Source: Candidatus Gottesmanbacteria bacterium RIFCSPLOWO2_01_FULL_39_12b
GTDB lineage: Bacteria > Patescibacteriota > Microgenomatia > 2-02-FULL-39-11
Assembly: GCA_001780955.1 (NCBI GenBank)
Contig: MFJR01000007.1
Coordinates: 500,320 to 539,412, forward strand
DNA length: 39,093 nucleotides
Direction of reading: 5' to 3'
In this document: positions 1,978 to 39,092 of the stretch, one piece after another
How the letters are laid out: each line of letters starts with the position of its first letter
Numbering within the stretch: position 1 is the stretch's first letter
Position numbers and translations under genes: made by a program
Notes under the pieces: model-generated
The model's database searches: none
Seen by the model: only the letters and a program-made list of their open reading frames with translations
What the model was told of the DNA's origin: nothing

Positions 1978-1996
1978 GTTAAGGTTGGACCTTAAC
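1978..1996. repeat. RAYT1 left-end palindrome (family A)
   Basis: GTTAAGGTTGGACCTTAAC is a perfect inverted repeat with 8-base arms and a TGG loop. It lies eight bases before the start codon of the transposase at 2005. The core AAGGTTGGACCTT recurs at 2694-2706 and 3837-3849. Hairpins at both ends of a Y1 transposase gene are the expected layout for IS200/REP-type elements. Confidence 0.85.
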
Positions 1997-2004
1997 GCGA
2001 TATT

Positions 2005-2691
2005 ATGCCTGCTAGAAATATTATAAAATGCTACGTTGATAACGGCTTCTACCATATCTACAATCGAGGGGTAGAAAAAAGAACTATTTTTCTGGACCTT
2101 CAAGACTGTAAAGTTTTTCTCTATTATCTTAAAATGTACTTATCCCCAGTCGAAGATCTCGTTGAGCTAAATAAGGCTATACCAAGAAAAAGAATCAACA
2201 GGTTTATTCCGCTAAACTTATTCGATGAGGTCGATTTGTTGGCTTTTGCCCTAATGCCTAACCATATCCATATTCTCATAAAACAGGGTTCAAGAAACGG
2301 AATAATAAAATTTATGCGCAGATTATCTACAAGTTACGCATCGTACTTTAATAGAAAGTACAAACGGATTGGAACGTTATTCCAAAGTAATTACAAAGCA
2401 ATCCTGGTACAATCAGATGAATACCTGATACATCTTTCAAGATATATTCATCTAAACCCGCTCAAAAACAAAAATAAAACTTCAATTGATTGGAGGAATT
2501 TCTCCAGTTACCCCTATTATTTAGGAGAAAAAAATGCCAGTTGGTTAAAGCCTTCTTTGATATTAGATAATTTTAAATCTATCAACAATCTAAATCCTCA
2601 AGAGATACTCTCTTATCAAAGCTTTGTAGAAAAGTACTCCGAAGATCAGGCAGACATTCTTGGAGATTTGAGGCTTGAAGACAATCTTTAA
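2005..2691 (+). CDS. REP-associated tyrosine transposase (RAYT1, Y1/IS200-like)
   Basis: This is a 228-residue single-strand DNA transposase of the Y1 (HUH) superfamily. The metal-binding HUH motif is visible as MPNHIHIL (His87 and His89). The nucleophilic tyrosine is expected in the helix SYASYFNRKY, so Tyr111 or Tyr114, followed by the conserved G-LFQ-NYKA and LSRYIHLNPL blocks. The N-terminal YHIYNRGVEKR block is characteristic of REP-associated (TnpA_REP) members. The gene is full length and intact. Hairpins of family A flank it on both sides (1978-1996 and 2694-2706), and the last four codons lie inside the 32-bp right-end repeat. RAYTs act on REP hairpin DNA; whether this copy is still active cannot be seen. 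Confidence 0.93.
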   Translation: MPARNIIKCYVDNGFYHIYNRGVEKRTIFLDLQDCKVFLYYLKMYLSPVEDLVELNKAIPRKRINRFIPLNLFDEVDLLAFALMPNHIHILIKQGSRNGIIKFMRRLSTSYASYFNRKYKRIGTLFQSNYKAILVQSDEYLIHLSRYIHLNPLKNKNKTSIDWRNFSSYPYYLGEKNASWLKPSLILDNFKSINNLNPQEILSYQSFVEKYSEDQADILGDLRLEDNL

Positions 2692-2711
2692 CGAAGGTTG
2701 GACCTTAGCAG
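2680..2711. repeat. RAYT1 right-end repeat (32 bp, family A)
   Basis: This 32-bp block contains the last codons of RAYT1 (Asp-Asn-Leu-stop) and the hairpin AAGGT-TGG-ACCTT at 2694-2706. An identical 32-bp copy lies at 3823-3854. It also sits between two convergent genes, where the hairpin could end transcription, although no U-tract follows it. Confidence 0.85.
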
Positions 2712-15145: not shown

Positions 15146-17784
15146 TGTATGAGTTCCTGCCAATTAATCTGAGATCTTCCTAAATAAGGTAAGAGAGCGA
15201 TCATATATTGCGGCTGATAGATAAACTGATAGGTAGGAATTGAAATATTTCTAAATTCTCTTCGAAAATCAAGGACGTTTGCATACAACATTCCATCAAG
15301 TATAAATCGGTTATTCCCATTTTCGATGATAAATGAATTATTGGCCACATACATGCCTGAGATACGATCAATATTGTTAAAGTCTTGATCTATGTTACCC
15401 GCGATACTGATATTACCGCTAACTATGAAAATAATACTTTTAGTCGTGCTGAACTCCTTATCCAGAGTTAAATCACCATCTATTAAAAATATAGCCGGAT
15501 TAATATTTTTACTATCCAGGTTTGCTATGAATGCATCATCGGGAATATAATCTCCAAATGCATAAGCCGGATAGGAATAAATATTTTTTCCTGTTTCCAG
15601 ATCAACACTTTGTCCGATAGTTCCGGTTGGATCATTGATTGATTTACTTTGGCTTTTAAGAGAGGTTTCATAATATAAATAATTATATGGATTGGATATC
15701 GTTCCTTTTGCCTGCCATCCTGTTTGTGACGGATTTCCTTGACCATAATTGAAACTTCCGCTGACTGACCAGATTACGCCAACACTTTGCGGCATGTCTG
15801 GATTTGTTATCGGTTGTAAAAGATTCTGTCCCGAAGGTATTTCATAATTGATGACTGACTGGTAAATATCTCCGCCTAATACCTGTATCCAATCGGGTGG
15901 GGTGGGGGTTAGGGTAATGGTCGGAGTTGGGGTAGGAGTCTCGGTTGGAGTAATTGTTGGAGTCAATGTAACGGTTGGAGTAATTGTTGGAGTTAGGGTT
16001 GGAGTAAGAGTGGGCGTAGGACAGACTATTTGTCCTTCGGGTGAAAAAGATGCCCAATCATTGGTAACACGTCCGTAGACAATTCTTCCCGGAGGTATTC
16101 CGGGTATAATACCTGTATTACAATTGTCTTTGTAGACATCCTGTGGAGAAACTGCTGCGCAGTTAAACCACCAGTCTCCGATACTATCCCAGGTTTGCAG
16201 ACCGATTTCTCCGGTTGACCAGGCCCAGGTAACCGGAGTCGTATTTGTGCCCGGATCATAAGTACCGCATGATCCTACCGGAGTCCCCGGAGCCGGAGGA
16301 GGAGTTGGAGATGGAGTCAATGTAACGGTTGGCGTAATTGTTGGAGTTAGAGTTGGGGTATTTGTTGGAGTAGGAGTAGCAGTCGGAGTCAAGGTTGGAG
16401 TAGGAGTCAAAGTAGTTGTTGGAGTGGGGGAAGGAGTAATCACGCACGAAGCCCCAACGGTAACTGTCCGGGTGAAGGATGCTTTTCTCGGGTTGATGTC
16501 AGCTGGGTGGTCGCACCATCCTTCGGGAGCCATTGCATTACTAAGGTGGTTATATTGGGGGGGGTCATATACGGGGCAATCGAGTCTCGGAGGGTGATCT
16601 AGGAAATCACACTTCTGCTCTTTCATGTCACAATGACTTCTAAATCCGAAGTTTATATCATACGATGACCCTGCGGGAGCATCCGGAGATACCGTGAATG
16701 TGTACCGCTTTCCCTCTGCCACCGTCGGATCCGAGCTGGGCAGTATATCAGACCCAGTCAACGTCACAAAGCTGGGCAAATTTGTAATATCAATATCCTG
16801 ATAATTCAGATTATTGCAGGTCAACGATAGGTTGTGAAGAGGCGGTGCTCCACCGCCACCACCACCTAAATCCACCTGAAAGAATGCGTCTTGCCCGCCC
16901 CATGCATAAGGAGGGCTATCCCAGTAACCATGAGCTACATCCCATTCTCCGGTAGCTCTCGCGTCAATTGTATATGAACATCCCGGACCGGTCGATCCGT
17001 TCAAACTGGTGACAACATTTTCATTAAGTGATATATAAAAGCAGGCCTGTTCTCCGTAATCCAGATCATACCACGATGACATAGTTCTGTATCGGTTGTT
17101 TCCGATAGCGAGTTGAAAACGTGTTAATATTTTCTGGTCTCTATAAAACCGGATTTCGTACGCTTCATCCTCTAAAATAGCCCCGGGATTAAAATTATTA
17201 ATGTACACAGGACCAGGATATGGAGTATCCCCATCATCGGAATCAGCAATAGAGCCCCCCATACGTCTTGATTGGATTTTATACAGTCCCATCCTATCGG
17301 TACTTTTAACATATGATACATCTGTTTTATTCCATGTTACTTCAAAAGAAGTAACTACATTTGAGTTTACCTCCGACGGGTTTACGCTGAGTGTCGGAAT
17401 ATCCGCTGATACGGTAATCGGGTCAGAAACGGCAATCGATTCGGCAATCCATGACGTACTATCCGGTCTGCGAAACAGCCGAAGCTCGTATGTGGTCCCC
17501 AATTGAAAATCATATGGCGGGAGAAGCACCGTGCCGTTATCCGTTCCGTCTGTTTGAGAGGATACCAGAAAGGCGCTATCCGGACTGTCTGTTTGGTACA
17601 ACCCTATCCAGTTATCTGCAGAAGGATTGCCAATATTCCAATTCGCACCGACCGAATGGGTGCCCGGCAGTACCGGCGACCAGTCAGACGATACTGATGC
17701 AGCAGCAAGCACATGAGCCGGAGAGAGCAGGGAAAAGAAAATAAACAAGAGTAGGCAGGCTGCTTTTATCGTTATGTGTTTCAT
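15142..17784 (-). CDS. large secreted protein with Pro/Thr repeat linkers
   Basis: About 880 residues from the ATG at 17784. It has a signal peptide (MKHITIK... to HVLAAA) and two tandem beta-domains with the pattern WIGLY...YELRLFRR / MGLYKI...YEIRFYRD, reminiscent of SKICH-like folds. A Cys-bearing middle section and two long Thr-Pro linkers follow (DNA at about 15900-16015 and 16295-16440). The C-terminal segment has parallel-beta character (IFLIDGDLTL, IIFIVSGNISIAGNI, GMLYAN), like the outer domain of pilus-tip or polymer-forming proteins. The open frame extends 16 codons upstream, but 17784 lies one base after the previous gene's stop. The 3' end overlaps the PilX-like gene as ATGA. Function unknown; likely surface adhesion. 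Confidence 0.72.
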   Translation of the reverse strand: MKHITIKAACLLLFIFFSLLSPAHVLAAASVSSDWSPVLPGTHSVGANWNIGNPSADNWIGLYQTDSPDSAFLVSSQTDGTDNGTVLLPPYDFQLGTTYELRLFRRPDSTSWIAESIAVSDPITVSADIPTLSVNPSEVNSNVVTSFEVTWNKTDVSYVKSTDRMGLYKIQSRRMGGSIADSDDGDTPYPGPVYINNFNPGAILEDEAYEIRFYRDQKILTRFQLAIGNNRYRTMSSWYDLDYGEQACFYISLNENVVTSLNGSTGPGCSYTIDARATGEWDVAHGYWDSPPYAWGGQDAFFQVDLGGGGGGAPPLHNLSLTCNNLNYQDIDITNLPSFVTLTGSDILPSSDPTVAEGKRYTFTVSPDAPAGSSYDINFGFRSHCDMKEQKCDFLDHPPRLDCPVYDPPQYNHLSNAMAPEGWCDHPADINPRKASFTRTVTVGASCVITPSPTPTTTLTPTPTLTPTATPTPTNTPTLTPTITPTVTLTPSPTPPPAPGTPVGSCGTYDPGTNTTPVTWAWSTGEIGLQTWDSIGDWWFNCAAVSPQDVYKDNCNTGIIPGIPPGRIVYGRVTNDWASFSPEGQIVCPTPTLTPTLTPTITPTVTLTPTITPTETPTPTPTITLTPTPPDWIQVLGGDIYQSVINYEIPSGQNLLQPITNPDMPQSVGVIWSVSGSFNYGQGNPSQTGWQAKGTISNPYNYLYYETSLKSQSKSINDPTGTIGQSVDLETGKNIYSYPAYAFGDYIPDDAFIANLDSKNINPAIFLIDGDLTLDKEFSTTKSIIFIVSGNISIAGNIDQDFNNIDRISGMYVANNSFIIENGNNRFILDGMLYANVLDFRREFRNISIPTYQFIYQPQYMIALLPYLGRSQINWQELIQ

Positions 17785-25941: not shown

Positions 25942-25954
25942 AGGGTTCAACCCT
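25942..25954. repeat. palindrome containing the stop codon of the SpoU methyltransferase
   Basis: AGGGTTCAACCCT is a perfect inverted repeat with 6-base arms around one central base. The TGA stop of the methyltransferase (25947-25949, minus strand) is at its centre. It resembles the AAGGTTGAACCTT palindrome in dprA and more loosely the RAYT1 family A core. Confidence 0.7.
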
Positions 25955-26519
25955 TAAAAGTAATAAATTCCGTCAGTTTGTAGAGCACGATTCCGCACGA
26001 TACCATCACATTTAGAGACTTGTTTATCCCAAACATCGGCAGTTCAACGATCCTGTCTGCTATTTCCAGAACGTCTTTTGAAACCCCATAAGTTTCGTTT
26101 CCCACTACCACAACCACCGGTAACTCCACTTTTAATTCTGACAGTGGTATGCTTTTTTCATGCTGTTCCACTGCAACTATTTTGCAAGGGCTGCCCTTGC
26201 CTTGCAAGGGCTGCCCTTGCCCTTGCTCTTTTGAAATCTTTTCAATGGCTTTTTTAGCAGTTTCTGCGTACTCCCACTCCACCCAGTTCCAGGTATTAAT
26301 CGAGGCTTTCTTAATTCTTGGATTTGGCGGCGTCTCGGTCTCCCCGCAAAGGAAAATTTTTTTAGCCGCTACGGCATCCGCTAACCGGAAAATAGAACCA
26401 ATATTATAGGTATCCAACACGTTATCTAAAACGATATAAATTGGATTTTTCTTTATTCTTTCAATAACTTTCGGATCCGGCTCCTGCGTTCTCAACTGCC
26501 TGGCATTAAGATTTTTCAT
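25947..26519 (-). CDS. SpoU/TrmH-family RNA 2'-O-methyltransferase
   Basis: This 190-residue SPOUT enzyme uses S-adenosylmethionine to methylate ribose in tRNA or rRNA. The three family motifs are clear: DNVLDTYNIGSIFRLADA (about 32-49) with the catalytic Arg45, VVVGNETYGVS (137-147), and ELPMFGINKSLNVMVSCG (159-176), which forms the knotted cofactor site. Residues about 99-112 (GQGQPLQGKGSPC) look like an insertion where relatives run directly into KIVAVEQ, and they are encoded by a tandem palindrome. The stop codon lies in another palindrome. The start overlaps the PAP2 gene by 14 bases. The target nucleotide cannot be predicted. Confidence 0.9.
   Translation of the reverse strand: MKNLNARQLRTQEPDPKVIERIKKNPIYIVLDNVLDTYNIGSIFRLADAVAAKKIFLCGETETPPNPRIKKASINTWNWVEWEYAETAKKAIEKISKEQGQGQPLQGKGSPCKIVAVEQHEKSIPLSELKVELPVVVVVGNETYGVSKDVLEIADRIVELPMFGINKSLNVMVSCGIVLYKLTEFITFKG
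26182..26221. repeat. tandem 20-bp palindromic repeat inside the methyltransferase gene
   Basis: TTGCAAGGGCTGCCCTTGCC occurs twice in a row (26182-26201 and 26202-26221). Each unit holds a hairpin GCAAGGG-CTG-CCCTTGC (26184-26200 and 26204-26220). The pair stays in frame with the coding sequence. Confidence 0.85.
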
Positions 26520-27524: not shown

Positions 27525-27562
27525 CGGGGTCAGGCCTTAAAGGCGTTAAAGGCCTGACCCCG
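27525..27562. repeat. long palindrome at the 3' end of the 177-aa gene
   Basis: CGGGGTCAGGCCTT and AAGGCCTGACCCCG form perfect 14-base arms around a 10-base loop. The left half lies in the gap between two genes and the right half inside the end of the 177-aa gene, giving its last codons (SGSGL) and TAA stop. It may also end transcription, though no long U-tract follows. Confidence 0.85.
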
Positions 27563-38515: not shown

Positions 38516-39092
38516 TTGAAATTTGAGGATTATAGACCGGGGCAAAGACGGTAAACCAGGCATGCGTCCGGTTTTTGGGATCGCCAAATTCCGACGTCCC
38601 GGTCTTACAGGCCACCGGAATCTCTACCATCGGCTTACCCGAAACAGTAGCCTCATATGTCTGTAAAAAATCCAAATTATCAGCTTTGAACTTTGAACTT
38701 TGAACTTTGAACTTAAATAATGGCCACCCCGTCCCCCCGGAACTGCACGCCTCCTTCATACCCTGCCGGATAAGCTCCAGATTCTCTTTTTTTATGCCTA
38801 CGTCTTTACAATTTTCATTTTGTTCTTTGGTTAAATGCGGCCGGCACAGCTTCCCCCCGTTGGCAATCACATTCGTCCAGGCGTTTACCTGCAGTGGGGT
38901 GGTCAGTATATCGCCCTGCCCGATGGCCACATGATAGGTATTACCCAGATACCAGTCTTGCCCCCGCACTTTCTTTTGCCAGGAAGGATCCGGCATGACT
39001 CCTTTTTCCTCCCCTTCAAGATCTATCCTGAGTATATTTTCAACTCCCATCTTTTTTGCCCAAAGGGCAATATTTTCAATTCCGGTGGCTTC
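38427..39092 (-). CDS. PBP2-type peptidoglycan transpeptidase, 5' part outside window
   Basis: Only the C-terminal 221 or so codons are present; the frame is open to the window edge. The KTG active-site motif is visible in VACKTGTSEFG, with WYLGNTYHVAIGQGDILTTPLQ upstream, the typical order of class B penicillin-binding proteins, and AIKKILEEW-type residues at the end. The Ser-x-x-Lys and Ser-x-Asn motifs would lie outside. It cross-links peptidoglycan, probably for elongation. A heptanucleotide tandem repeat (38684-38711) encodes FKFKVQSSKFKAD, an insertion before the KTG motif. The 3' end is overlapped by the gene on the other strand. Confidence 0.92.
   Translation of the reverse strand, partial: EATGIENIALWAKKMGVENILRIDLEGEEKGVMPDPSWQKKVRGQDWYLGNTYHVAIGQGDILTTPLQVNAWTNVIANGGKLCRPHLTKEQNENCKDVGIKKENLELIRQGMKEACSSGGTGWPLFKFKVQSSKFKADNLDFLQTYEATVSGKPMVEIPVACKTGTSEFGDPKNRTHAWFTVFAPVYNPQISITVLVEGGGEGSNVAAPIAKKILEEWFGR
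38684..38711. repeat. four tandem CTTTGAA heptamers inside the PBP2 gene
   Basis: CTTTGAA is repeated four times without interruption, followed by a partial CTT. The unit is not a multiple of three, so gain or loss of one copy would shift the frame upstream of the KTG motif. Confidence 0.9.

Follow-up and report, generated by a model that had tools for sequence, protein, structure and literature searches.

REPINs and their RAYT transposases have been described in Pseudomonas and Stenotrophomonas as pairs of close, mostly inverted palindromic REPs, which match the REPs flanking the RAYT gene; according to the portions of these studies cited here, classical REPINs are extragenic and the REP type is specific to the genome (PMC3116915, PMC3686654). 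The definition of REPs by Nunvar, as given in the cited portion, comprises a 5'-terminal GTAG or GTGG, a palindrome matching the RAYT flanks, and numerous copies that are almost only intergenic (PMC3686654). Intragenic REP dimers are already known in other phyla according to the relevant part of Di Nocera 2013, in which GTAG/CGTC REPs were found inside genes of Opitutus terrae, Rickettsia conorii, and others; these families are mostly intergenic, and more than 50% of the in-gene REP inserts were reported as dimers or groups (PMC3733652). Rickettsia palindromic elements (RPE; Ogata 2000, 2002) are 105-146 bp in length and lie in frame in conserved genes, as stated in the cited part of PMC2229807. 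Among the papers listed by a literature search, none was relevant to RAYTs in Patescibacteria, and nothing was returned on transposase palindromes of Gottesmanbacteria.

The repeat investigated here is located in a SpoU methyltransferase gene within a stretch of 39,093 nucleotides (the window; C7:500320-539412) of a genome assembled into 15 contigs (1.27 Mb, 84% complete). The repeat is very probably a REP doublet (REPIN) from a family found at the ends of one Patescibacteria RAYT subfamily, presumably placed here by a RAYT in trans, with the reading frame kept. The family resembles REPINs in having close, mostly inverted palindrome pairs which match RAYT-flanking REPs, and in its genome-specific type. 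Unlike REPINs, the Patescibacteria doublets have the tag YTAG instead of GTAG/GTGG, are low in copy number, and lie mostly inside ORFs, with a spacer of 3-6 nt, a range set by our search pattern. Compared with the definition of Nunvar, only one of 26 tags is GTAG, the match to RAYT flanks was found in a relative (G012), but in the own genome the centres differ, and there are at most 13 doublets per genome, with 27 of 33 in ORFs. Like the REPs of Di Nocera, they are found in frame in conserved genes, singly or as dimers; the present family differs in its phylum, its tag, and its tie to RAYTs that share its palindrome, many of them with a REP in their own ORF. RPE are likewise palindromic selfish DNA in frame in conserved genes (here SpoU, Fmt, GatA, IDI, FolD, and copper ATPases), whereas the present doublets are 37-40 bp in length and linked to RAYTs, against 105-146 bp and no transposase named in the cited part of the RPE literature. 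Streamlined Patescibacteria genomes have little extragenic room, and this RAYT-linked REP family is mostly found as translated sequence, which makes it a tractable system for studying how selfish DNA shapes protein loops.

The tandem palindrome in SpoU and its loop

The features of the SpoU locus are as follows:

25947..26519, minus strand: SpoU/TrmH-family RNA 2'-O-methyltransferase, 190 aa, intact, host of the insert (PF00588 SpoU_methylase, E 4.5e-31)
26182..26226, no strand assigned: probable REP doublet array, 45 nt (15 codons), two 20-bp units and a partial one (repeat search)
26184..26200, no strand assigned: REP palindrome unit 1, GCAAGGGCTGCCCTTGC (from the sequence)
26204..26220, no strand assigned: REP palindrome unit 2, same orientation, with the 3-nt spacer CTT between the units (from the sequence)

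The repeat consists of two perfect 20-bp copies of TTGCAAGGGCTGCCCTTGCC (26182-26201 and 26202-26221). No further copy beyond this pair is present in the window with up to three mismatches allowed, and none of 100 dinucleotide-preserving shuffles contained a match. The initial annotation, which had reported a tandem 20-bp repeat inserted in frame in a SpoU methyltransferase, was correct in both respects; the ORF is intact, and the units encode GQGQPLQGKGSPC ahead of KIVAVEQ. According to Tandem Repeats Finder, the array reaches 26226, including the partial third unit. Each 20-bp unit contains a perfect 17-bp palindrome, GCAAGGGC-T-GCCCTTGC. It had been proposed that the two units can form two hairpins, and each of them indeed contains a perfect palindrome; however, the best single-stranded DNA fold pairs both units into one long hairpin (-21.1 kcal/mol, z -5.98), which was equalled by none of 200 shuffles. 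The SpoU doublet is a near-inverted, same-letter pair, which is not exactly inverted and still gives a single hairpin in the fold; this REP copy is without a clear 5' tag.

The solved TrmH/SpoU chains 1zjr, 1v2x, and 7edc have nine residues fewer at the insert in the sequence alignment, and the REP palindrome is present in none of the 12 SpoU orthologues of the family, which agrees with the claimed insertion between a helix and a strand. The window protein retains NIGSIFR, VVVGNETYGV, and LPMFGINKSLNVMV, which we take to be motifs of the SpoU family. The segment running from TW up to the strand ahead of EQ has 38 residues in the window protein, 28 in six of the 12 family orthologues, and 32, 34, 36, 38, 38, and 57 in the other six (all 13 SpoU loci including the own one were measured, and 10 were taken for the first alignment). 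Homologues equally long without the repeat had been named as evidence against an insertion, and the result is divided in this respect, since two orthologues have 38 residues without the repeat and six are shorter by 10. No common peptide was seen in the loop of the aligned orthologues. The orthologue with 57 residues (L069, G001) has a long insert of other sequence in the same loop, with the peptide DSSRSLRMT; on our reading of the peptide, this may be a different dispersed repeat. Because the lengths vary among orthologues and another insert is present in G001, the SpoU loop appears to tolerate inserts, and the REP pair would be one of several things there. Single-sequence structure prediction of SpoU gave a mean pLDDT of 37.5 and was not used; the position of the loop was taken from the alignment to the solved chains.

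Copies in relatives and at the ends of RAYT genes

The 17-bp palindrome GCAAGGGCNGCCCTTGC has six copies in the own genome, arranged as three pairs, and every pair lies in frame inside an ORF (SpoU, a 672-aa mannosyltransferase-like gene on C6, and a 1211-aa gene on C8). It is therefore not private to SpoU, given these three pairs together with the copies in relatives. Variant copies are found in own-genome ORFs at C13:1813 and C13:78595, and two more in one 472-aa ORF on C14; REP doublets inside ORFs of the own genome (L206, L207) were noted at C13:78595, C14:47597, and C14:48164, the latter two both in the 472-aa ORF. The exact 17-mer occurs in four of 15 family genomes and five of 373 class genomes. 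A scan of named genomes for it returned 10 stretches, half of them from Ca. Gottesmanbacteria MAGs; the other five come from unrelated organisms, each with a single copy, and about two chance matches are expected by our estimate. In viral contigs, an exact search gave no copy of the palindrome.

Among the relatives, G011 and G012 are Candidatus Gottesmanbacteria groundwater MAGs, and G012 is the JACREK MAG. The RAYT ORF of G012 (723-1427) has one copy of the palindrome starting 48 bp before the start codon, another 4 bp after the stop codon, and a third inside the ORF. Its product contains the Y1 HUH domain PF01797 (37.3 bits, cut-off 23) and PNHFH. Against NCBIfam NF047646 (REP-associated tyrosine transposase), the tested RAYT scored 31.2 bits, below the cut-off of 80, and may at best be a distant member. 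G185 likewise has a RAYT with ends of this kind. The palindrome is thus associated with RAYTs in relatives, and the view that the SpoU palindrome is unrelated to RAYT ends is not supported, as the RAYT of a relative is flanked by the identical 17-mer.

The window itself encodes a RAYT with the following features:

2005..2691, plus strand: RAYT (Y1_Tnp) ORF, best match of the own genome (49% identity) to the relative's RAYT with SpoU palindrome ends
1981..1993, no strand assigned: upstream REP of this RAYT, AAGG-TTGGA-CCTT (stem 1978-1996; flank search)
2694..2706, no strand assigned: downstream REP of this RAYT, AAGG-TTGGA-CCTT (flank search)

In the initial annotation, the SpoU palindrome had been described as unlike the RAYT ends. 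This is true of the letters, but the plan AAGG-N5-CCTT is common to both, with another centre in the window RAYT. In the own genome (84% complete assembly), we found no RAYT whose ends have the centre GCAGC; the nearest RAYT has the TTGGA ends.

Across the RAYT subfamily, AAGG-N5-CCTT is present upstream at 24 of 31 loci, downstream at 21, and at both ends at 19, against none of 22 RAYTs of other subfamilies and five of 6200 shuffled flanks. These counts leave aside four of 35 subfamily loci and one of 23 others with too short a flank, and L033, L041, and L056 were excluded beforehand from the set of other RAYTs for an odd start, Ns, or truncation. The stricter GCAAGG form, with one mismatch allowed, was found upstream of 15 and downstream of 10 of the 35 subfamily RAYTs. 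The left flank of the RAYT-end REPs reads YTAG-CYTC; TAG lies within 11 nt on the 5' side in 26 of 43 of these REPs (TTAG in 15, CTAG in 10, GTAG in one), and the family unit is YTAG-CYTC-(GC)AAGG-N5-CCTT(GC). Because the subfamily ends carry the plan of the SpoU palindrome in this way, and the same palindrome flanks the RAYT of a relative, the SpoU insert is best interpreted as an intragenic REP doublet.

The strongest of the alternatives is local slippage or tandem duplication in SpoU with no mobile history, to which we assign quite a small probability. It would suit the identical, directly repeated units followed by a partial third one, as well as the variable loop length of orthologues without any REP, but it does not account for palindrome pairs in two other unrelated genes of the own genome and at the RAYT ends of relatives. 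Duplication may still have had a part after insertion: since both units read the same way, it is possible that a single REP was inserted and then duplicated locally over 20 bp to give the second unit.

For the REP doublet, we infer mobility, with a RAYT as the mover. The RAYT would have copied the doublet into SpoU, probably in trans on single-stranded hairpins, as proposed for REPINs. The insertion site would be a length-tolerant loop between the helix and the strand KIVAVEQ, where the insert was presumably neutral for the enzyme. The doublet may have survived in SpoU because its length kept the frame and its arms are without stop codon in any frame, and only those copies that keep the frame in tolerant loops would survive.

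Doublets inside genes and their centres

The pattern AAGG-N5-CCTTGC-(3 to 6)-GCAAGG-N5-CCTT detected 41 doublets in 12 of 373 class genomes, and the 33 doublets with listed places were examined; the reversed doublet pattern was absent among the matches listed. The 27 doublets within ORFs refer to ORFs of at least 100 aa, and their hosts, according to solved-structure searches, include methionyl-tRNA formyltransferase (Fmt), GatA, isopentenyl-diphosphate isomerase (IDI), FolD, and two copper ATPases. Exact inversion was seen in 28 of the 33 doublets and near inversion in two, one of which is the SpoU doublet. In this group of tiny bacteria, RAYT-end-type hairpin elements are often within genes with the frame intact, and the palindrome resides in frame in SpoU and many other genes. 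The ORF share of doublets (82%) is close to that of random positions in the same loci (88.7%), so there is no sign that genes are either targeted or avoided. All six frames are open in 19 of 33 doublets, compared with 5% of random 39-mers.

The spacer is 3 nt in 14 doublets, 6 nt in 13, 4 nt in five, and 5 nt in one, and thus a multiple of three in 27 of 33 (binomial P 1.6e-4 against one half). Selection for the reading frame was considered as the reason for spacers of 3 or 6 nt and dropped, as all six doublets outside ORFs have such spacers, against 21 of 27 inside. Compared with solved homologues, the net gain is nine residues in SpoU, eight in IDI, four in Fmt, five in FolD, three and zero in the copper ATPases, and about zero to one in GatA. 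Because these gains of 0-9 residues are smaller than the 11-15 codons of the element, some native residues appear to have been replaced or lost at the insert sites, and the model of clean insertion is weakened.

It is highly improbable that selection on the protein produced the longer loop, for instance as an RNA-binding or linker peptide, with the DNA palindrome being incidental: SpoU is an intact protein and several orthologues have a long loop, but the aligned orthologues share no loop peptide, and in unrelated proteins the same DNA is read in different frames as different peptides (QGQPL, KGSPC, ARAAL). An uptake signal or chromosome-organisation motif was dropped on account of too few copies and the tie to RAYT genes, and a transcription terminator was dropped as the copies lie inside ORFs.

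Five orthologous gene pairs from different genera have a doublet at an identical position and codon phase, with third-position identity of 41-51% in their flanks. Identity of the doublet arms between orthologues is imposed by the search pattern and is no proof, whereas the shared position is not imposed. The centres differ in four of the five pairs, and each centre is still palindromic across both units. For instance, the doublet in the C8 gene has the centres GCAGC/GCTGC in the own genome and GGACC/GGTCC in G012, with the spacer GTAC common to both. Such same-site doublets were either inherited with their centres rewritten or result from insertion recurring at one place. One of the five pairs, with compensatory centre differences, is that of L179 (G012:C174) and L008 3279-3316. 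In the C8 orthologue of another genus (L108, G005), this loop contains another palindrome, TTTAAGGGTCAGACCCTTAAA, near 1875. That the repeat is an artefact of assembling or binning a repeat-rich MAG has hardly any probability: the genome is 84% complete and palindromes are hard to assemble, but the frame is kept in all three own-genome pairs, and in G012, an independent genome, an orthologous gene carries its doublet at the identical codon position, as do four other orthologue pairs.

The comparison of centres covered 21 of the 33 doublets, from eight genomes with a known RAYT centre, and in 11 of these 21 the doublet centre is also that of a RAYT end in its own genome (permutation mean 2.6, P 0.005). 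None of five doublets in the own genome matches the centre of its one examined RAYT with such ends, and the window RAYT is therefore disfavoured as the mover.

REP copies inside RAYT genes

A total of 49 related RAYTs (35 from the first sets and 14 added) were examined for a REP inside the gene. AAGG-N5-CCTT was found inside the own ORF in 28 of them, in one codon phase in all 28, at residues 162-177 in 26 and at residue 61 in two; the window RAYT (2005-2691) has no inside copy. In codon-shuffled RAYT ORFs, the motif was held by 12 of 1750. The inside centre equals the centre of a flanking copy or its reverse complement in 26 of 28 RAYTs. For the first 35 RAYTs, this match was 19 of 21, compared with a permutation mean of 2.6 and a largest value of 10 in 5000, where relatedness was ignored. 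There are 13 different inside centres, which differ even between RAYTs of about 70% identity. Since so many centres occur among well-diverged proteins, the inside and flanking centres would have changed jointly on many separate occasions. The literature search, in the portions of the publications concerned, found no report of REP copies inside RAYT ORFs, and of the papers listed on RAYTs with internal or intragenic REPs, PMC3733652 was the one of relevance; the inside REP looks new, and it is the part a specialist would not expect. The set of RAYTs with an inside REP includes the loci L040 723-1427, L148-L176, and L209-L217.

We also put forward a speculative reading, which we regard as unlikely. 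RAYTs of this clade may encode their own REP, with the variable, in-frame 5-nt centre serving both as a DNA label and as part of the code for a short peptide (L-A-S/L-Q-G-x-x-L-Q) behind the RYIH motif. Changes of the centre would then be common to the gene and its ends, giving a self-written specificity in which the centre-coded peptide may help to read the centre, and this label would also be borne by REPINs within SpoU and other host genes, with their centres rewritten along. If true, the rewritten centres of host-gene REPINs would explain the same-site doublets with different centres in orthologues. With the RAYTs that have an inside REP, it becomes possible to test how specificity remains common to a RAYT and its REPs while both change.

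Finally, other repeats were also observed in the window, including two clusters of GTTGGAGTAATT-type tandem repeats with periods of 6 to 30 (15908-16438), a 17-bp inverted repeat CGGGGTCAGGCCTTAAA / TTAAAGGCCTGACCCCG at the 3' end of an ORF (27525-27562), and a perfect CTTTGAA heptamer array of 4.4 copies (38684-38714).
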